Source: Asaia bogorensis (GTDB lineage Bacteria > Pseudomonadota > Alphaproteobacteria > SHVZ01). Taken from it: a stretch of 35,215 nt of DNA. Each line of letters begins with the position of its first letter. Positions within the stretch are counted from its first letter, which is position 1. The position numbers and the translations under genes were made by a program. Shown here one piece after another: positions 15,784 to 27,814 of the stretch. Under the pieces are notes generated by a model that ran no database searches, was not told the DNA's origin, and worked only from the letters and a program-made list of their open reading frames with translations. The DNA is taken from the NCBI GenBank assembly GCA_945897335.1, contig CAMDFP010000011.1, forward strand, positions 1 through 35,215, written 5' to 3'.

Positions 15784-16722
15784 ATGGACCAGTCGGGGGG
15801 ACATCCGGGAGAGACCGAGGCGGCGGCGCGCAAGCGCACGCGTCTCGGCATCGCCATCGGCATCGCCATGGCGCTGGGCGCGGCCTCCTCGTTCTCGGTC
15901 GCGCGCGGCGGCATCCTTCACGGCGTCCACCCCGAAGACATCACGCTGCTGCGCTTCGCCGTCGCCGGGCTGATCTTCCTGCCCTTCGTCCTCTGGCGCG
16001 GCATCGGCAACCTCGCCGGCATCGGCTGGGGACGCGGCCTGCTGCTGGCGCTCACCGCCGGGCCGGCGGCGGCTTTCCTGCAGGTCGGCGGCTTCGCCTA
16101 CGCGCCGCTGGCCCATGGCGCGGTGCTGGTGCCGATGTCGGTGACCGTCTTCTGCTCGGTGATGGCGGTGGTGGTGCTGAAGGAGCGCCACGGCCCCCGG
16201 CACGCCGTCGGCACCTTCGGCATCCTGGCCGGCCTCGGATTGATCGGCGGCGAGGGCCTGATGTCCGGTGGTGCCGGGGTGTGGATCGGCGATCTGATGT
16301 TCATCTCGTCGGGCGTCCTCTGGGGCAGCTACACGCTGCTGTTCCGCTACTGGCGGCTGGACGCGGTGGCCGGGATCGCGGTCGTCAGCGTGATCTCGCT
16401 CTTCGCCATGCTGATCGTCTATCCGCTGTTCTTCTCGCTGCCCCACCTCCTCGCGCTCCCGGCGCACGACGTCTTCCTCCAGGGGCTGACCCAGGGCCTG
16501 CTCAGCGGCACGCTCTCGACCATCGCCTACAACTGGATCGTCATCCTGCTGGGCGCCGGACGCGCCGTGCTGTTCCCGGCGCTGGTGCCGGGCGTGGCGA
16601 TCCTCTTCGGCATTCCGATCCTGGGCGAGTGGCCGACGCTGATCCAGCTCCTCGGCCTCGCCTTCGCGATGATCGGCCTCCTGGTCGCGCTCGGCATTCT
16701 CCGCTGGCCAGCCTCGCGATGA
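15784..16722 (+). CDS. DMT/EamA-family transporter
   Basis: A protein of 312 residues with about ten membrane helices in two repeated EamA halves. The first runs from LGIAIGIAMALGAASSFSVARGGI, the second from GDLMFISSGVLWGSYTLLFRYW to ILGEWPTLIQLLGLAFAMIGLLVAL. The positions TLLRFAVAGLIFLPFVLW and PVVPGVAILFGIPILGEWPT-like segments are typical of the family. The ATG at 15784 follows the tetR stop by one base. Members export amino acids, drugs or metabolites; the substrate is unknown. Its control by the adjacent TetR is likely. It converges with the Crp/Fnr gene, with 19 bases between stops. Confidence 0.92.
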   Translation: MDQSGGHPGETEAAARKRTRLGIAIGIAMALGAASSFSVARGGILHGVHPEDITLLRFAVAGLIFLPFVLWRGIGNLAGIGWGRGLLLALTAGPAAAFLQVGGFAYAPLAHGAVLVPMSVTVFCSVMAVVVLKERHGPRHAVGTFGILAGLGLIGGEGLMSGGAGVWIGDLMFISSGVLWGSYTLLFRYWRLDAVAGIAVVSVISLFAMLIVYPLFFSLPHLLALPAHDVFLQGLTQGLLSGTLSTIAYNWIVILLGAGRAVLFPALVPGVAILFGIPILGEWPTLIQLLGLAFAMIGLLVALGILRWPASR

Positions 16723-16741
16723 AGCGGCGACCCTGCTTGTG

Positions 16742-17512
16742 TCACAGCCCGGCGGCGCGACTTTTCGACGTCGGCCGATCGCCGAGCAGCCGGTCGAACT
16801 CCTTTCGGGAAACCGAATAGCATTCACAGGTGCGGCGTTCGAGCGCGCGCCGGTCGAGGATCGAGACGTTGCCGCGTTTATAGCGGATGAGGCCGTCGCG
16901 CTGCAGGGCGCCTGCCGCGGCCGTAACGCCGGTGCGCTGGACCCCCAGCATCATGGCAAGGAACTCCTGCGTCAGCAGGAACTCGTCGGACTGCATGCGG
17001 TCGTGTGTCATCAGCATCCAGCGGCTGCACCGCTGCTGGATCGAGTGAAACTGATTGCACGCGGCGGACTGGGCCACCTGGTTGAAGAAGGCGTGGGCAT
17101 AGCGAAGCATCACCGCCCGCATCGACGTACTTCGCGCCAGCTCCGCCTTGAACAGCGATGCCTTCATCCTGAGCCCGGTACCGGGAACCTGGACGTAGAC
17201 GCTGGTGGGCGCCCTGCCGTCGCCGAAAATGATGGGCAAGCCGACAATGCCCTCGTTGCCGACGGTCCCGACTTCCGCCGCCTTGCCGTCCTCCATCGTG
17301 TTCACCAGCGAGCCGACACCTGTCTCGATGAAGTAGACCGAGGTGATGGCCTCGTGCGCGCGATAAAGCGATTGCCTGTATTCGAGCGGAATTCGTCGAA
17401 GATGCGGACGAAGTCGCGCGTAGTCTCCCCGTGCCAGCAAACCGAGCAATCGATTGCCGCCCGGGCCCGCTGCCTTGCGCGCAGCCATCGCCTTGCCGCT
17501 CCGGTCGGTCAT
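16742..17512 (-). CDS. Crp/Fnr-family transcriptional regulator
   Basis: A protein of 256 residues from ATG at 17512 (MTDRSGKAMAARKAAGPGGNRLLGLL), with GAGAAAG upstream; the frame is open further, but without protein character. Residues ~20-145 are a cyclic-nucleotide-type beta barrel (ITSVYFIETGVGSLVNTMEDGKAAEVGTVGNEGIVGLPII), followed by the long dimer helix and a winged helix (LLTQEFLAMMLGVQRTGVTAAAGALQRDGLIRYKRGNVSILDRRALE). The N-terminal cysteines of FNR are missing, so no iron-sulfur cluster is expected. The recognition helix (QRTGVTAAAGAL) lacks the E-x2-SR of FNR. It is divergent from the sensor kinase across a 364-base region. Confidence 0.92.
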   Translation of the reverse strand: MTDRSGKAMAARKAAGPGGNRLLGLLARGDYARLRPHLRRIPLEYRQSLYRAHEAITSVYFIETGVGSLVNTMEDGKAAEVGTVGNEGIVGLPIIFGDGRAPTSVYVQVPGTGLRMKASLFKAELARSTSMRAVMLRYAHAFFNQVAQSAACNQFHSIQQRCSRWMLMTHDRMQSDEFLLTQEFLAMMLGVQRTGVTAAAGALQRDGLIRYKRGNVSILDRRALERRTCECYSVSRKEFDRLLGDRPTSKSRAAGL

Positions 17513-17876
17513 GCTGAACACTTTCTCGATAGTCGCGCGGCCAGCGAAGTCCGGCCGCCTCAAGCGATTGCCGCCGCGTCGCGGGCTGACAATTTTCGCT
17601 TCATTTGACTCGACGTCGTGTCGATCGGGCAGATGAGCATCTGCGCAGCCGGAGATCACGCTGCGCCTTCGGTTCAGGGCTAGCAAGGCAATGTCTGGTA
17701 CCGGACACGTTATCGCGGGCCATCGAGATGCTGCCCAAGGCATGTCGTAACAGAAAAATCACAGGTTGTGAAATTCATGTCTGCTATCCGACATAGTTGA
17801 TCTGCATCAAGGCCGACCGTCGGTCCTCGGCGCATATTTCGCGCTGCCGAAATGTCTCAAGCGAAAGGCTGAGGAC
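17513..17876. other. Divergent promoter region of regulator and kinase
   Basis: A 364-base gap with no gene I can support; the frames entering it from the Crp/Fnr side are Arg-rich and unlike protein. It holds the FNR-type box at 17797-17810, a short palindrome GACCGTCGGTC (17814-17824) and a CATATT hexamer at 17833-17838. The minus-strand promoter of the Crp/Fnr gene should also lie here but is not obvious. Confidence 0.6.
17797..17838 (+). promoter_or_regulatory. FNR/FixK-type box with aligned -10 element
   Basis: TTGATCTGCATCAA (17797-17810) matches the FNR consensus TTGAT-N4-ATCAA at every defined base. If it occupies the class II position (-41.5), transcription would start near 17845, and CATATT at 17833-17838 then falls at about -12 to -7. 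The kinase ATG is at 17877 with GAGGA just before it. This suggests low-oxygen activation of the kinase operon. The binding protein is not proven. Confidence 0.7.
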
Positions 17877-18659
17877 ATGATCGCGGTGCAGATCGCCCAG
17901 AGCGTCGACACTCTTTCGAACATTGTTCCCCCACGCCCGGAGCGTCGCATGGCCTGGACTCACGAGCGCGAACTGGCAAGGTGCCGAACGACGGAGACTG
18001 ATCTGCGCGCGGCCCTTGCCCGCGAAGAGGATCTGCTTCGCCGGCAGGAGAAGCTGCTCGAAGAGCAGAAGCTCCTCAGCAAGGAATCCGATCACCGGCT
18101 GCTGAACGGCCTGCAGATGATCATGAGCCTGCTCATGCTGCAGAGCCGGAAGGCGACGAATGACGAGCTCTCCTCGCAACTGGTCGTCGCCGCCACGCGC
18201 GTCTCCGCCATCGAGCGCGTCCACCGGCGCCTGCATTGCCTGGACGGCGTCCGGACCGTCGCCTTCAGGCAATACCTCGAGGAGCTTTGCCGGGATTTCG
18301 CGGCGATGCTGCCCCCGGCTGAACGTCCGGAGCCGCCCATCGTCGTCGAAGGAGTGGAAGTCGAGCTGCCGACCACGATCGGCATCCCGCTCGGCTTCAT
18401 CGTCAACGAGATGATCATGAACGCCGCCAAGTACGGCCAGGGGCCGATCTCGGTCCGATTGGAGCGGACTCCCGGAAGTGGCTACGCGCTGTCGGTCAGC
18501 GATGACGGCCCGGGCCTGCCGGAGGGATTCGATCCGGCGGCCGGCAAGGGGCTGGGCATGAAGATCATCCGCTCTCTCGTCGAGCAGATCGGCGGCGAGT
18601 TACGCATCGGTCGCGGCGACGGCGGCCGCGGCGCGCGATTCACGGTTCTGTTCGCCTGA
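17877..18659 (+). CDS. Soluble sensor histidine kinase, HisKA_2 type
   Basis: A protein of 260 residues without membrane segments or a PAS, GAF or HAMP domain, so it is cytosolic. A coiled coil spans ~30-72 (ELARCRTTETDLRAALAREEDLLRRQEKLLEEQ). The phosphorylation site is His73 in ESDHRLLNGLQMIMSLLMLQSR, the HisKA_2 motif. The ATP-binding domain has the N-box around Asn177-Asn182 (VNEMIMNAAKYG), D210GPG and the GKGLGMKI loop. HisKA_2 kinases are common in alphaproteobacteria and often act in the general stress or light response. No response regulator is adjacent, so the partner is elsewhere. The coiled coil may replace a sensor domain, suggesting protein-protein input. Confidence 0.93.
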   Translation: MIAVQIAQSVDTLSNIVPPRPERRMAWTHERELARCRTTETDLRAALAREEDLLRRQEKLLEEQKLLSKESDHRLLNGLQMIMSLLMLQSRKATNDELSSQLVVAATRVSAIERVHRRLHCLDGVRTVAFRQYLEELCRDFAAMLPPAERPEPPIVVEGVEVELPTTIGIPLGFIVNEMIMNAAKYGQGPISVRLERTPGSGYALSVSDDGPGLPEGFDPAAGKGLGMKIIRSLVEQIGGELRIGRGDGGRGARFTVLFA

Positions 18660-18671
18660 CTTTCCCACGCT

Positions 18672-18699
18672 GCCGTTCCGCCGCAATCGGCGGCACGGC
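18672..18699 (+). terminator. Hairpin after the kinase gene
   Basis: GCCGTTCCGCCG (18672-18683) pairs with CGGCGGCACGGC (18688-18699) through a CAAT loop with one mismatch, 12 bases after the kinase stop. No T-run follows. It may end or weaken transcription before the lipoprotein genes, which would then have their own promoter. Confidence 0.5.
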
Positions 18700-18754
18700 G
18701 TCGATCGACCCGCCTGTGGCGGGATGCACGAACCACTTCAACCGGAGACAAGTC

Positions 18755-18997
18755 ATGAAGCGATTCAGTTTCGCGGCCACGCTCTTGCTTTCGCTGTTCG
18801 CACTCGGCGCGTGCGGTCACTCCCAGGGCGACCGCGCGCTCAGCGGTGCCGGGATCGGCGCCGGCGTCGGCGCGCTCGGAGGGCTCATGGTCGGCTCGCC
18901 GGTCGAGGGCGCGCTGATCGGCGGCGTCGTCGGCGCCGGCACCGGCGCGCTGACCAATCCGCATCAGATCAATCTCGGCCGGCCGCTCTGGCGCTAG
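18755..18997 (+). CDS. Gly-zipper lipoprotein (copy 1)
   Basis: A lipoprotein of 80 residues from ATG 18755, with GGAGAC upstream. The signal peptide MKRFSFAATLLLSLFALGAC ends in a lipobox with Cys20 as the acylation site. The mature part is a YMGG-like Gly-zipper: DRALSGAGIGAGVGALGG..VEGALIGGVVGAGTGALT, a tight helical hairpin that can insert in a membrane. It resembles osmotically or stress-induced small lipoproteins. About 57 of 80 residues are identical by hand alignment to the protein at 26849. It begins the run of envelope genes that ends at 20122. Role unknown. Confidence 0.88.
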   Translation: MKRFSFAATLLLSLFALGACGHSQGDRALSGAGIGAGVGALGGLMVGSPVEGALIGGVVGAGTGALTNPHQINLGRPLWR

Positions 18998-19041
18998 GCC
19001 GTTCGCATCCACGACACCGTCTTCATCCAATGGAGGTCAAA

Positions 19042-19521
19042 ATGTCTCGTTCAGCGACAATCATGCGTGTGCTTGCTGCAACCGTGGCTCTTGCCGTCGT
19101 GGCCGGATGCGCGGAGCAGGGGCAGCGGGCCGCCTATCAGCCGCCCCTGACCGCCGCGGGCGACGAGCCAGAGCTCGCCGGCGCCTGGTACCAGGTGTTC
19201 TTCGACACCAACAGCGCCGCGATCAACGCGCGGGGACAGACGATCGTCAAATCCGTCGCCCATGTCGTCGCCAATGCCGGGCCGACACGCGTAACCGTCA
19301 TCGGCAAGACCGATCGCGTCGGCGCGCCTCCGGCCAACCTGGCGCTGGCTCAGCGGCGGGCCGACACGGTGCGGGACGCGCTCGTCGCCGCCGGCGTGCC
19401 GGCCGCCCGCATCGACACGTCCTGGACCGGCGAGGGCCGGCAGGACGTGGTCACCCTCGACGACACCGTCGAGCCCCGCAACCGGGTCGTCGACGTCACC
19501 GTGGTCAAGCAGCCTCGCTGA
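19042..19521 (+). CDS. OmpA-like lipoprotein
   Basis: A protein of 159 residues; ATG 19042 follows GGAGGT by four bases (an ATG at 19030 is possible but covers the ribosome site). The signal peptide MSRSATIMRVLAATVALAVVAGC has a lipobox at the Cys, so it is a lipid-anchored envelope protein. Residues ~50-155 form an OmpA_C domain: YQVFFDTNSAAINARG, IGKTDRVGAPPANLALAQRRADTVRDALVAAGVPAARI, DTVEPRNRVVDVTVV. The D and R positions (NLALAQRRA and PRNRVV) bind diaminopimelate in peptidoglycan. It should tether the outer membrane to the wall. It lies 44 bases after the Gly-zipper lipoprotein. Confidence 0.92.
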   Translation: MSRSATIMRVLAATVALAVVAGCAEQGQRAAYQPPLTAAGDEPELAGAWYQVFFDTNSAAINARGQTIVKSVAHVVANAGPTRVTVIGKTDRVGAPPANLALAQRRADTVRDALVAAGVPAARIDTSWTGEGRQDVVTLDDTVEPRNRVVDVTVVKQPR

Positions 19522-19605
19522 TCGTTGCTGGCGGCGGCGCGAACGGCTCCGAAGAAGCCGGCGCGCCGCCGTCGAAATCTCGAGATGGCCGAGCCGGAGC
19601 AAACC

Positions 19606-19764
19606 ATGCTGCACACCGCCCTCGTCGTCGTCCTCGTGCTGGTCCTGCTGTCGTTCTTCGGCGGCTATGCGGGCCATGTACCGACGCATTTCGGCTACGG
19701 CGGCGGCGGGGTCGGTCTCGTCATCCTGATCGTCCTGCTCGTCATTCTGCTGCGCCGAGCCTGA
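19606..19764 (+). CDS. Tiny membrane protein, DUF3309-like
   Basis: A protein of 52 residues from ATG 19606 with CCGGAG seven bases upstream (ATG 19585 is an alternative with no clear ribosome site). MLHTALVVVLVLVLLSFF and GGVGLVILIVLLVILLRRA are two membrane helices joined by GGYAGHVPTHFGYGGG. This layout, a two-helix protein with a Gly/Pro/Trp or Tyr-rich middle, resembles the DUF3309 family, whose role is unknown. It sits between two lipoprotein genes in the same direction and is probably co-transcribed. It is a small but credible gene because of its neighbours and composition. Confidence 0.7.
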   Translation: MLHTALVVVLVLVLLSFFGGYAGHVPTHFGYGGGGVGLVILIVLLVILLRRA

Positions 19765-19810
19765 GCGGCCGAGGGCCGCCGTCCTCCCCTTCAATCCAGG
19801 AGTCCCCGTC

Positions 19811-20122
19811 ATGAAGAAAGCCTTGCTGATCCGCCTCGTCGCAGCCCTCCTCGCGACGACGACGATCGTCGCCTGCACCTCGACCCGCACCAGCGAGAGC
19901 ACCGGCGAATATGTCGACGACGCCGCCATCACCTCGAAAGTCAAGGCGGCCCTGCTCAGCGACGCCGGCCTGAAGTCCTTCGCCATCTCGGTCGAGACCT
20001 TCAAGGACGCGGTCCAGCTGAGCGGCTTCGTCAACACCGACCAGGTGAAGGCACGCGCCGGCGAAGTTGCCGCGGGCGTCCCCGGCGTCAGGTCCGTGCG
20101 CAACAACCTCGTGGTCAAGTAG
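19811..20122 (+). CDS. BON-domain lipoprotein (copy 1)
   Basis: A protein of 103 residues, with CAGGAG before ATG 19811. The signal peptide MKKALLIRLVAALLATTTIVAC gives a lipobox with Cys22. A single BON domain follows: YVDDAAITSKVKAALLSDAGLKSFAISVETFKDAVQLSGFVNTDQVKARAGEVAAGVPGVRSVRNNLVV, with the conserved Gly of LSGFV. BON domains bind phospholipid or peptidoglycan-associated partners and occur in OsmY-like stress proteins. It is paralogous to the protein at 27237 in the same pairing with a Gly-zipper lipoprotein. It is likely in the outer or inner membrane facing the periplasm. Confidence 0.93.
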   Translation: MKKALLIRLVAALLATTTIVACTSTRTSESTGEYVDDAAITSKVKAALLSDAGLKSFAISVETFKDAVQLSGFVNTDQVKARAGEVAAGVPGVRSVRNNLVVK

Positions 20123-20192
20123 CTGGCGCCGCGCGCGAGCGCGTGAAGGCAGCCCAGGCTCCCGACAGAACGACGTTAGCTGAGAGGAAGCC

Positions 20193-20888
20193 ATGAGCCG
20201 ACTTCGCCTCCACCGCGAGAGCCATCTCGTCGGCCGCATCGGCTGGCTCAGGGCCGCCGTGCTCGGCGCCAATGACGGGATCATCTCGACCGCGAGCCTG
20301 ATCGTCGGCGTCGCCGCCGCCTCATCGACGCAGACCGGCATCCTGATCATCGGTGTCGCCGGCCTCGTCGCCGGCGCCATGTCGATGGCCGCCGGCGAAT
20401 ACGTGTCCGTCAGCTCGCAGTCCGACACCGAGCAGGCGGACCTCGCGCGCGAGCGCGGCGAACTGGGCGCGAACCCGGCCTTCGAGCTCGACGAGCTGGC
20501 ACAGATCTATGTCGGGCGCGGCGTCGCGCCGGCGCTCGCCCGCGAGGTCGCCGGCCAGCTGATGGCGAAGGATGCCCTCGCCGCCCACGCCCGCGACGAG
20601 CTCGGGATATCGGAAATCACCGCCGCGCGCCCGGTGCAGGCCGCCTTGACCTCGGCCGCGACCTTCTCGGTCGGCGCCGCCTTTCCGCTGCTGATGGTCG
20701 TCGTCTCGCCAGCCGGCGCGCTGGTTCCCGTCGTTTCCGCCTCGTCCCTGGTCTTTCTCGCCGTCCTCGGAGCCATCGGAGCGAGAGCGGGCGGCGCCGG
20801 CATGCTGCGCGGCACCGCCCGCGTGGCATTCTGGGGGGCGCTGGCGATGGCGATCACCGCCGGCATCGGGGCCCTCTTCGGCGCGTAG
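20193..20888 (+). CDS. VIT1/CCC1-family membrane protein
   Basis: A protein of 231 residues. The N-terminal helix pair RIGWLRAAVLGANDGIISTASLIVGVAAA and GLVAGAMSMAAGEYVSVSSQSDTEQADLARER is the signature of the CCC1/VIT1 family, where these acidic and Met residues conduct Fe2+ or Mn2+. A cytoplasmic helical segment (~80-150) follows, and then three more helices ending at GALFGA. It is probably an inner-membrane divalent metal transporter that removes iron or manganese from the cytoplasm. It lies in the envelope run, 70 bases after the BON gene and 21 before the ABC gene. Confidence 0.92.
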   Translation: MSRLRLHRESHLVGRIGWLRAAVLGANDGIISTASLIVGVAAASSTQTGILIIGVAGLVAGAMSMAAGEYVSVSSQSDTEQADLARERGELGANPAFELDELAQIYVGRGVAPALAREVAGQLMAKDALAAHARDELGISEITAARPVQAALTSAATFSVGAAFPLLMVVVSPAGALVPVVSASSLVFLAVLGAIGARAGGAGMLRGTARVAFWGALAMAITAGIGALFGA

Positions 20889-20909
20889 CCTTCATATCGG
20901 GAGAGTCGG

Positions 20910-22655
20910 ATGACGAGGCTGCGACAGCTCGCACGCGACGTCTGGGTTCTGACGAGGGGCTACTGGCGCAGCGAGGAACGGTGGTCGGCCAGGCTGCTCC
21001 TGGCCACGATCATCGGCCTCAATCTCGGCCTGGTCGGCGTCACCGTCCTGCAGAACCAGGCGACGGGCGAGCTCTTCACCGCGCTCCAGCAGCGCGACGC
21101 CGACGGCTTCTCCCAAGCCTTCTTCGTCGTCGTCCTACTGATCCTGCTCTACCTCGCGGTCGCGGTGCTGCGCGTCTATCTCGACCAGACCCTGCAGCTC
21201 CGCTGGCGGCGCTGGCTCACCGACCAGTACGTCTCGCGCTGGCTCGCCGACCGCACCTTCTACCGCATGCGCTTCTCCGGCCGGGTCGACAACCCCGACC
21301 AGCGCATTTCCGAGGACGTCCGCCTGTTCATCGACCGGTCGATGTTTCTCGGCCTCGGATTCCTCAACGCGCTGGCGACGCTGGCCTCCTTCGCAGCCCT
21401 GCTCTGGTATCTCTCCGGCAGCATCACGCTGGCGGTCGGCGGCCTCGAGGTCACGATCCCCGGATACATGTTCTGGGCCGCCGTGCTCTATGCCGGCATC
21501 GGCTCGACGCTGGCGCACCTGATCGGCCGGCCGCTGATCCGCCTCAACAACCGTCAGCAGGCGGTCGAGGCCGACTTCCGCTTCAATCTCGTGCGGATCC
21601 GCGAGGAGGCCGAGGGCATCGCCCTCTACGGCGGCGAGGAGCAGGAGCGCGTCCTTGCGCTCGGCCGCTTCCGCGCCCTCTACGACAACTTCAAGCGCAT
21701 CATCCTCTGCAGCAACCGGTACCTGCTGTTCCAGCTGCTGTTCAGCCAGTTCACCTCGTTCGTCGCGCTCGGAATCGCGTCGCCCCGGTATTTCTCGGGC
21801 GCGATCCAGCTGGGCGTGCTGACCCAGACCGCGAGCGCCTTCGAGCGCGTCAACGAGGCGCTGTCCTGGCTGATCGGCAGCTACATGGCCTTCGCCGAAT
21901 GGCGGGCGACTGTCGACCGGCTGACCGAGTTTGCCGCCGAGATCGAGCGCGAGGCGGCGGCGGCCGCGCTCGCCACCCGCACGGCGACGGGTACTCAGAG
22001 CACCATCGACCTGCAGAACGTCGGCGTGTCTCTGCCCGACGGCGAGCCGTTGCTGGCGCCGGTGACGCTGAGCTTGAGGCCGCACGAGCCGGTGCTGATG
22101 AAAGGCCCGTCCGGTGCCGGCAAGAGCACGCTTTTCCGCGTGCTCGCCGGATTGTGGCCATTCGCGACCGGGCGCATCCTCCTCCCCGTCGGTGCCCGGA
22201 CGCTGTTCCTGCCGCAGCGGCCCTACATGCCGATCGGGACGCTCCGCGAGGCGTTGTGGTTTCCCGGCCGGCCGGTCGTCGACCGCGAGGCCGAGGCGCG
22301 GGCGGCCCTCGACGCCGTGGGCCTCTCCAACCTCCGCGGACGCCTGGACGAGGATGCGCATTGGGCGCAGGCGCTGTCGCTCGGCGAGCAGCAGAAGCTC
22401 GCGATCGCGCGCGCGCTGCTGATCAAGCCGGATTGGCTGTTCCTCGACGAGGCGACCTCGGCGACCGACGAGGCGGAGGAAGCGGCGCTCTATCGCATCG
22501 TCACCGAGGCCTTGCCGGCGACGACGGTGATCAGCATCGGGCACCGGATCGCCCTCGAGACCTATCACCGCCGGATGATCGCGTTCGACCAGGGCGCCGG
22601 GCGGCCCGGACGGCTTGTCGACCAGTCCGCCGGCCGTCTCGCGCAGCCGGCGTGA
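20910..22655 (+). CDS. ABC transporter, fused permease-ATPase, ABCD/SbmA-YddA type
   Basis: A protein of 581 residues. The N-terminal half has about six membrane helices (LLLATIIGLNLGLVGVTVLQNQATGELF, FFVVVLLILLYLAVAVLRVYLDQTLQLRWRRWLTDQYVSRWLADRTFYRM, PDQRISEDVRLF). The Q-LRWR-WLT, Y-RWL and NPDQRI-ED marks are those of the ABC_membrane_2/SbmA-like family. The ATPase half has Walker A GPSGAGKST (~398-406), signature LSLGEQQ (~488-493) and Walker B WLFLDEATSA (~508-517), so it is active. Relatives move peptides, fatty acids or vitamin B12. The substrate is unknown. CGGGAGAG lies upstream of the ATG. It follows the VIT gene by 21 bases, so they are likely co-transcribed. Confidence 0.92.
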   Translation: MTRLRQLARDVWVLTRGYWRSEERWSARLLLATIIGLNLGLVGVTVLQNQATGELFTALQQRDADGFSQAFFVVVLLILLYLAVAVLRVYLDQTLQLRWRRWLTDQYVSRWLADRTFYRMRFSGRVDNPDQRISEDVRLFIDRSMFLGLGFLNALATLASFAALLWYLSGSITLAVGGLEVTIPGYMFWAAVLYAGIGSTLAHLIGRPLIRLNNRQQAVEADFRFNLVRIREEAEGIALYGGEEQERVLALGRFRALYDNFKRIILCSNRYLLFQLLFSQFTSFVALGIASPRYFSGAIQLGVLTQTASAFERVNEALSWLIGSYMAFAEWRATVDRLTEFAAEIEREAAAAALATRTATGTQSTIDLQNVGVSLPDGEPLLAPVTLSLRPHEPVLMKGPSGAGKSTLFRVLAGLWPFATGRILLPVGARTLFLPQRPYMPIGTLREALWFPGRPVVDREAEARAALDAVGLSNLRGRLDEDAHWAQALSLGEQQKLAIARALLIKPDWLFLDEATSATDEAEEAALYRIVTEALPATTVISIGHRIALETYHRRMIAFDQGAGRPGRLVDQSAGRLAQPA

Positions 22656-22733
22656 TTCCGCCCCTCCCCTCCTTCCGGTGCAGGCGCGCCCCGCGCTAGG
22701 ATCGCCCCGAACGCCCCGCCGGGAGGAATTCGG

Positions 22734-26568: not shown

Positions 26569-26848
26569 CAAGCGCGGAACTCCATCGCCGCAGTCAAATA
26601 AAACGACCCTCGTCTCCGGTTTATCTCCAATAAATATCCAGCATTGCGCTTCATCATTATTTCGAACGCTCTGGATTTATTAGGGACTATTTAATTAGCC
26701 CCCTGAAGATCCATTGTATTTTCTTCAACCTCCCCCATCTCTCGACCTCGCAAGACAAACACCGATGACCGGGATTTCCTGGTCCGGACGTGACGCTGCA
26801 ATGGCGCCCACGTTCGCCGTCGAGCCTGTTCTTTCCGGGAGACACCTC
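26569..26848. other. Non-coding gap with an AT-rich island
   Basis: Together with the hairpin, ~340 bases separate ccrM from the next lipoprotein. Bases ~26595-26720 are clearly AT-rich for this genome and carry an imperfect inverted pair: AATAAATATCCAG (26629-26641) against CTGGATTTATT (26671-26681) with a two-base bulge. I see no gene. The promoter for the lipoprotein pair is expected here. Confidence 0.5.
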
Positions 26849-27091
26849 ATGAAGCGCCTCATCCTCACCGCCACCCTGTCCCTTTCCGTGATCGCCCTCG
26901 CCGCTTGCGGCAACACCACGGGCGACCGTGCGCTCAGCGGCGCGGGCATCGGCGCCGGCGTCGGCCTCGTCGGCGGCGCACTGGTCGGCGCCCCGGTTGA
27001 AGGCGCCCTGATCGGCGGCGCGGTCGGTGCCGGCACCGGCGCGCTCACCACCCCGAACCAGGTCTATCTCGGCAAGCCGGCCTGGCGCTGA
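26849..27091 (+). CDS. Gly-zipper lipoprotein (copy 2)
   Basis: An 80-residue lipoprotein from ATG 26849, with GGGAGAC upstream as in copy 1. The signal peptide MKRLILTATLSLSVIALAAC ends in a lipobox with Cys20. The Gly-zipper (DRALSGAGIGAGVGLVGGALVG..VEGALIGGAVGAGTGALT) and the end LGKPAWR match copy 1 at 18755; differences cluster in the signal peptide and a few zipper positions. It is followed by a BON lipoprotein, as copy 1 is after two other genes. Duplication of the module is the likely origin. Function unknown. Confidence 0.88.
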   Translation: MKRLILTATLSLSVIALAACGNTTGDRALSGAGIGAGVGLVGGALVGAPVEGALIGGAVGAGTGALTTPNQVYLGKPAWR

Positions 27092-27114
27092 ACGCTTAAG
27101 GCTTAAGACCTTCG

Positions 27115-27169
27115 CCCGCGGCACACCCGCGGGAGGAGCGCCCCGGCCGGATCCCTCACGGGGTCCGGC
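27115..27169 (+). terminator. Two tandem hairpins between lipoprotein genes
   Basis: CCCGCGG (27115-27121) pairs with CCGCGGG (27127-27133), and GCCGGATCCC (27146-27155) pairs with GGGGTCCGGC (27160-27169) with one G-T pair. They follow the copy 2 stop at 27091. They could end its transcript or protect its 3' end while letting some RNA reach the BON gene. Confidence 0.5.
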
Positions 27170-27236
27170 TGGCGGGCGATCAAAACCTCAAGGTTCGGGA
27201 GCAGCATCCCATCGTCCCATCGCTCGAACTCGCCCC

Positions 27237-27533
27237 ATGCGCTTGAGTCTGGCGATAGCAATGCTGACAGCGATGCTGGCCGGGTGCGCCGCCGTCGCCG
27301 ATCCGGCGGAGACCCGCGCCCCTGTCGACGAAGCGGCGATCACTGCCGGGGTAAAGGCGGCGATCCTCGAGGAGCCGTCGCTCGAAAAGACGCCGATCAG
27401 CGTCGAGACGACGACGGACGTGGTCCTGCTCAACGGCTTCGTCGACTCCTACGAGAGCCGGTCGCTCGCCGCGCATCTGGCGCGCAACATCCGGGGCGTC
27501 CGCCTGGTGCAGAACGAGCTGGTCGTCAGATAG
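27237..27533 (+). CDS. BON-domain lipoprotein (copy 2)
   Basis: A protein of 98 residues from ATG 27237. The signal peptide MRLSLAIAMLTAMLAGC has a lipobox at Cys17. The BON domain (PVDEAAITAGVKAAILEEPSLEKTPISVETTTDVVLLNGFVDSYESRSLAAHLARNIRGVRLVQNELVV) shares the frame VD-AAIT-x2-VKAA-L, ISVET-x2-D-V-L-GFV and GVR-V-N-LVV with the protein at 19811. There is no strong ribosome site, so the start depends on the signal peptide. It is expected on the periplasmic side of a membrane. It pairs with the Gly-zipper lipoprotein upstream across a 145-base gap with two hairpins. Confidence 0.88.
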   Translation: MRLSLAIAMLTAMLAGCAAVADPAETRAPVDEAAITAGVKAAILEEPSLEKTPISVETTTDVVLLNGFVDSYESRSLAAHLARNIRGVRLVQNELVVR

Positions 27534-27814
27534 GAGCGCCCCCTCAGTCGGGGGCGTCGGGCGTTTCCATATCCCTCGGCGTCGGTCGCCCCGTCATTGC
27601 CGTCAGTGGTGATTTCCACCGTGCGGGCGCCACGCCTGAGAAGCGCCTTCACCTGCATCCCCGCGTCTTCCGCGTCGAACGCCATGACGGCCGTTCCCGA
27701 CTCGCGGATCTTGGCCTGTTGCCAAGCGGTGACCACCCGGTTTCCGCTCCCGGCCCGCCCGGCATTAACCACGCTGGCCGCTGGCGCTTCGGCATCTGCT
27801 GCGCGATAATCCAT
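27449..27814 (-). CDS. Uncertain open frame antisense to the BON gene end
   Basis: A frame of 121 codons on the minus strand; ATG 27685 would give a shorter form. The middle part (TAWQQAKIRESGTAVMAFDAEDAGMQVKALLRRGARTVEITTDG) has a protein-like pattern and G/C at most third positions. Its last ~28 codons lie antisense to the BON gene and look like shadow. The far start lies two bases from the tetR start at 27817, which leaves no room for a promoter. It may be a decayed small gene. I do not recognise it. Confidence 0.2.
   Translation of the reverse strand: MDYRAADAEAPAASVVNAGRAGSGNRVVTAWQQAKIRESGTAVMAFDAEDAGMQVKALLRRGARTVEITTDGNDGATDAEGYGNARRPRLRGRSYLTTSSFCTRRTPRMLRARCAASDRLS

Follow-up and report, generated by a model that had tools for sequence, protein, structure and literature searches.

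Two pairs of small lipoprotein genes, each with a glycine-zipper gene (Gzip) ahead of a BON-domain gene, stand close together in Asaia bogorensis, and the question they raise is whether one pair was copied from the other and has been kept together because its two products work together, as a sequence-only reading of this DNA had proposed. The window, that is, the whole stretch of DNA that was analysed, is contig C11 (35,215 nucleotides) of a draft genome of 442 contigs. The second pair had been placed about 8 kb from the first and its coordinates are correct, the start codons of Gzip1 and Gzip2 being 8.09 kb apart. The features that concern us are the following:

16710..22690: segment 1, about 6 kb, absent at the congener junctions
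16742-17743, minus strand: Crp-like regulator, opening segment 1
17877-18659, plus strand: short HWE/HisKA_2 kinase with no recognised sensor domain, also in the opening part of segment 1
18755..18997, plus strand: Gzip1, Gly-zipper lipoprotein of 80 aa
19042..19521, plus strand: OmpA-like lipoprotein with a peptidoglycan-binding domain (PF00691, 68.9 bits)
19606..19764, plus strand: DUF3309-like small membrane protein (PF11752, 20.6 bits, below the cut-off of 22.3)
19811..20122, plus strand: BON1, single-BON lipoprotein of 103 aa
20193-20888: VIT1-family gene of segment 1
20910-22655: ABC transporter with an SbmA/BacA-like membrane domain (105 bits), ending segment 1
26577..27761: segment 2, about 1.18 kb, with the second pair (Gzip2, BON2), absent at the congener junctions
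26849..27091, plus strand: Gzip2, Gly-zipper lipoprotein of 80 aa
27092..27236, plus strand: spacer from Gzip2 to BON2, containing two strong GC-rich hairpins that resemble terminators but lack a T run
27237..27533, plus strand: BON2, single-BON lipoprotein of 98 aa, divergent and on a long branch

The likeness of the two copies was described accurately in the sequence-only reading. Gzip1 and Gzip2 are identical at 57 of 80 residues (E 3e-24), and the common frame of the BON proteins amounts to 41 identical residues of 103 (40%, E 5e-21), with both BON1 and BON2 exceeding the gathering cut-off of Pfam BON (PF04972; 58.9 and 69.5 bits vs 27). Gzip also precedes BON in both copies, and in copy 1 the OmpA-like and DUF3309-like genes lie between them. 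For Gly-zipper_YMGG (PF13441, cut-off 28.9) Gzip1 scores above the threshold (34.8) and Gzip2 below it (25.2). The signals of Gzip1, Gzip2, BON1, BON2 and the OmpA-like protein end in LGAC, LAAC, VAGC, IVAC and LAGC, which we take to be lipobox-like. Across 26 Gzip sequences the glycines recur invariantly at i+4 (G31/35/39/43/47 and G52/56/60/64), and C20, G75, P77 and W79 are likewise invariant. The AlphaFold model of Gzip2 (mean pLDDT 82) consists of a signal helix and a two-helix hairpin (helices 24-46 and 49-65), and that of BON2 (pLDDT 81) has the BON fold, with OsmY (8rjx, E 2.4e-6) as its top fold match in the PDB and DolP matching at E 8e-5.

The pairing is found beyond this genome, in several alphaproteobacterial families. 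Our samples of the family and of the order comprise 7 genomes each, and the wider counts come from a draw across the class of 387 alphaproteobacterial genomes, for which completeness of at least 90% was requested; with thresholds of E<=1e-12 for Gzip and E<=1e-25 for the short BON lipoprotein, the former was detected in 60 genomes and the latter in 32. When our own genome is excluded, BON is present in 20 of 59 genomes with Gzip vs 11 of 327 without it (Fisher p 5e-11, a value that ignores kinship), and the two families co-occur strongly. They are nevertheless usually apart, which is largely the outcome that the sequence-only reading had named as counting against it: of the 20 other genomes with both families, only 4 have an adjacent pair, and in five congeners, three of them with both families, Gzip and BON were never seen on one contig, these contigs being short. 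The four exceptions span three families (G252 and G175, of one genus, G332 and G390) and have Gzip followed by BON on one strand with gaps of about 60-130 bp, while among the 16 remaining genomes the two genes are 7 kb apart in G114, 24 kb apart on one contig in G034, and elsewhere in the other 14. The order Gzip-BON-DUF3185 is seen in G332 and also in G412, a genome from another draw. Among 51 named loci, BON lies within 0.7 kb of Gzip in L030, L034, L049, L052 and L071 and at 1.47 kb in L057. The order of the two genes proved to be the commoner one elsewhere too, since the 11 cases outside the window within 1.5 kb comprise seven of Gzip-BON, three of BON-Gzip and one convergent arrangement.

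BON is not the only gene that accumulates beside Gzip. Across 78 loci we counted 8 BON genes in the 220 kb near Gzip (<=1.5 kb) vs 3 in the 485 kb far from it (>=3 kb), a 5.9-fold enrichment (p 0.006), and over the same distances 8 vs 5 OmpA-like genes (3.5-fold, p 0.02) and 5 vs 3 DUF3309 genes (3.7-fold, p 0.07). OmpA-like genes adjoin Gzip in L026, L027, L029, L052, L071, L101 and L103, and a true DUF3309 gene stands beside it in L027 and L105. Because the OmpA-like and DUF3309 genes are enriched as well, what recurs is a small stress-gene cluster and not an exclusive pair. The reading we favour, with a probability of roughly 0.55, is that Gzip and BON are small outer-membrane lipoproteins of the general, or envelope, stress response in alphaproteobacteria that have repeatedly clustered with OmpA-like and DUF3309/DUF3185 proteins, and that two such sets were gained here. 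Distances between Gzip and BON proteins in 13 pairs are not correlated (Mantel r 0.095, a value reached or exceeded in 2458 of 10000 permutations), which indicates that the partners do not visibly co-evolve and that the pairing seems to have been assembled repeatedly. The open-licence full texts covered by our search included no paper naming both the BON domain and the glycine zipper.

The same observations could also be accommodated without any joint mechanism, if variable genome islands accumulate the stress genes of a single regulon and Gzip and BON often meet there as mere neighbours. That the OmpA-like and DUF3309 genes share the enrichment, that the partners show no co-divergence and mostly live apart, and that GC-rich hairpins separate Gzip2 from BON2 would all be expected in that case. 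On the other hand, the same-strand, Gzip-first tandems with gaps of 60-130 bp in the four genomes, together with that of G412, are tighter than islands predict, and we consider mere neighbourhood a serious contender that falls somewhat short of an even chance.

The fold of the gap between Gzip2 and BON2 has a z of -3.07, with none of 200 shuffles equally stable, and a strong hairpin lies 3' of five of the six Gzip genes examined in the genus, the sixth leading into a tandem Gzip. Since the GC-rich hairpins lie between the two genes, their co-transcription is doubtful, and copy 2 probably consists of two transcription units. In copy 1, Gzip1 and the OmpA-like gene are spaced by 44 bp with no strong hairpin there and may be co-transcribed, and the genes of this copy might be under the control of the Crp-like regulator and the HWE/HisKA_2 kinase. 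For the EcfG general stress regulon, a promoter motif, GGAAC-N17-20-GTT, has been published from Sphingomonas melonis (PMC6599016). Among 87 Gzip genes 23 have it upstream (vs 4 of 87 in antisense and 2 of 84 downstream), and among 47 BON genes 16 do (vs 5 of 47 in antisense and 1 of 47 downstream), which links both families to stress. Another form of the EcfG pattern gave, for Gzip, 16 of 87 upstream, 4 in antisense and none of 84 downstream, and, for BON, 10 of 47, 5 and 1. The motif is found at -69, -77 and -78 of the C140-type BON genes of G000, G004 and G002, respectively, and at -75 and -243 of the C174 Gzip gene of our own genome. Upstream of Gzip1, Gzip2, BON1 and BON2 no EcfG-like motif was present by either pattern, which counts against the favoured reading, and we set aside EcfG control of the window copies, though the motif is enriched family-wide. 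A search for sigma-70 promoters found none.

How the two sets came to their present sites is best seen in close relatives. The region at 15.7-29.4 kb was searched as DNA against 7 genomes of the family and the matched regions were then read; the genes flanking both pairs are kept in congeners at about 78-88% identity, and the pairs themselves are missing. At the site of segment 2, the bases left between the CcrM block (to 26576) and the TetR block (from 27762) number 8 in G005, 14 in G001 and 146 in G002, so that the segment is missing in three of the four genomes with a readable junction (that of G003 is uncovered). In the fourth, G004, the CcrM-TetR gap of about 0.5 kb contains a Gzip gene and no BON. 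Segment 1, which runs from the Crp-like gene and the HWE-type kinase through Gzip1, the OmpA-like and DUF3309-like genes, BON1 and VIT1 to the SbmA/BacA-like ABC transporter, is missing in all four readable genomes, where 4 bases (G001), 3 (G003), 35 (G004) or 8 (G005) separate the EamA block (to 16709) from the TauD block (from 22691); the region is rearranged in G002. Because both sites are empty in G005, the closest congener by DNA identity, gain in this lineage is favoured and we infer it as the direction of change. The simplest reading is then that the two sets arrived, on their segments, at separate places within a single conserved block.

The opposite course, in which the cassettes were ancestral to the genus and were cleanly lost in the congeners, draws on the G004 gene in the CcrM-TetR gap (L036 2678-2920; the same as L018, G004:C105). 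A sister relationship between Gzip2 and L018 is not rejected (AU p 0.196), and a similar CCGGCCGG hairpin lies 3' of both genes. However, this gene groups with the other Gzip genes of the genus (96/94) and not with Gzip2, several near-scarless losses at two sites would be required, and the closest congener is cleanly empty at both. We regard such differential loss as unlikely, if still worth bearing in mind. By itself, the G004 gene points to one of two histories: this site received a Gzip gene more than once, or an ancestral Gzip gene was lost from other genomes.

The proposal that the pairing was kept after duplication is not supported. It had in its favour the same gene order twice within 8 kb, and a Gzip1/Gzip2 DNA identity of 77% (by blastn, 78% over 252 bp, extending about 10 bases upstream of the start codon). 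No other gene exceeds this value for Gzip1, although L027 equals it, and for Gzip2 it ranks second, which leaves duplication some probability. By protein identity, however, the best relatives of all four proteins are in other genomes: L027 for Gzip1 and L059 for Gzip2 (76% each), G412 for BON1 (63%), and L160 and L105 for BON2 (49%). In the tree of 87 Gzip proteins, which has too few columns and an unsettled bootstrap, Gzip1 falls together with two Telmatospirillum loci, Stella and L071 (support 100/85), at whose loci Gzip is followed by an OmpA-like gene as it is for Gzip1, and Gzip2 has no supported position. The tree of 47 BON proteins joins BON1 to the BON protein from L071 (96/84), a locus with the order Gzip-OmpA-BON, and BON2 forms a long branch away from it. 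The AU test does not reject trees in which the copies are forced together (p 0.208 for Gzip and 0.247 for BON), and duplication of one pair is thus neither backed nor rejected by these trees. Given best relatives in other genomes, separate placements of Gzip1 and BON1, BON proteins only 40% identical, and sites that are empty in close relatives, so that duplication would need a prior arrival too, it is improbable that the pair was copied within the lineage, with OmpA- and DUF3309-like genes inserted or lost, a fast-evolving BON2 and a pairing preserved by joint work. The empty sites in close relatives also mean that nearby pairs that look alike need not be duplicates, a caution that holds even if this is an ordinary stress cluster.

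The families themselves are ordinary, and it is their arrangement that is interesting. OsmY has the same BON fold, and the profile of the short BON lipoproteins matches it at E 1.2e-41, but it has two BON domains and a plain signal peptide, whereas BON1 and BON2 have one BON and a lipobox. DolP (YraP), described in PMC7806268 and PMC8081527 as a BON outer-membrane lipoprotein with a role in envelope stress, also has two BON domains, compared with a single BON stretch in each of BON1 and BON2. Its reported lipid-binding determinant, W127 (PMC7806268), is missing from both proteins, since neither contains any tryptophan. SlyB, whose rings surround outer-membrane proteins under stress according to a review (PMC13067283), shares with Gzip the form of a small lipoprotein and the Gly-zipper helical hairpin, and the C-terminal G-x-P-x-W signature of Gzip sets the two apart. 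SlyB did not match Gzip in sequence or fold searches, in libraries where its presence is not a given; the Gzip model gave no significant fold match in the PDB, with SlyB not among the results, and in sequence the best PDB match, with an OmpA-family protein, was weak (E 0.0084). Pfam likewise gave no match of Gzip to the 17 kDa antigen family, which we take to be the family name for SlyB-type proteins. Finally, YiaD (NF053611) combines a Gly-zipper and OmpA in one lipoprotein; positions 3-67 of this profile match Gzip1 and positions 103-205 the adjoining OmpA-like protein, and copy 1 therefore resembles a split YiaD, albeit with two genes, two lipoboxes and scores of 23.1 and 69.8 bits vs a cut-off of 175. 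Because the features of DolP, SlyB and YiaD that we tested are not found here, we file Gzip and BON only as Gly-zipper and BON-domain lipoproteins.

Under the favoured reading of repeatedly clustered stress lipoproteins, Gzip would be anchored by its lipid while its two-helix glycine-zipper hairpin packs into the membrane, where it could oligomerise into a ring as SlyB does. BON, with its one domain, would face the periplasm, as in OsmY, and the OmpA-like partner would link the patch to peptidoglycan, so that the three together could brace the outer membrane under stress. The computation shows the gene content, the recurrent clustering, the empty sites, the motif enrichment and the predicted hairpin and BON fold; outer-membrane location, oligomerisation and joint action are what we infer. 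Should the parts act together, they would offer a simple model of outer-membrane reinforcement under stress in non-enteric bacteria, beyond the enteric SlyB and DolP. A more ambitious version, in which Gzip, BON and the OmpA-like protein form a modular brace, reassembled from unrelated lineages and inserted as an intergenic cassette, a distributed counterpart of YiaD and of SlyB plus DolP, strikes us as distinctly improbable.

Several minor observations concern the origin of the segments and the other members of these families. Plasmid carriage was considered and dropped: Gzip2 had no match at E<=1e-5 in 72,556 plasmid records, and the nine plasmid matches of BON1 extend over no more than 80% of the query, with identities below 60%. 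Among 385 searched genomes of the class, the top DNA matches (76-77%) of the VIT1-family gene in segment 1 belong to an unrelated family (G238 and G305), a hint of foreign origin for this gene. At the EamA-TauD junction of L207 (G005:C30), which lacks segment 1, a second TauD-like start lies about 1.1 kb after the first. Beyond the window, our own genome carries BON genes on C140, C49 and C52 and two more Gzip genes of this family, one on C174 and one on C272, with no BON gene seen beside either Gzip. The one on C272, a fourth Gzip paralog (L012, G000:C272), appeared, when read by eye, to lie amid small membrane and stress-like genes in a cluster at 184-1746, and it has relatives in G005 and G002 with which it forms one branch (support 100/99).
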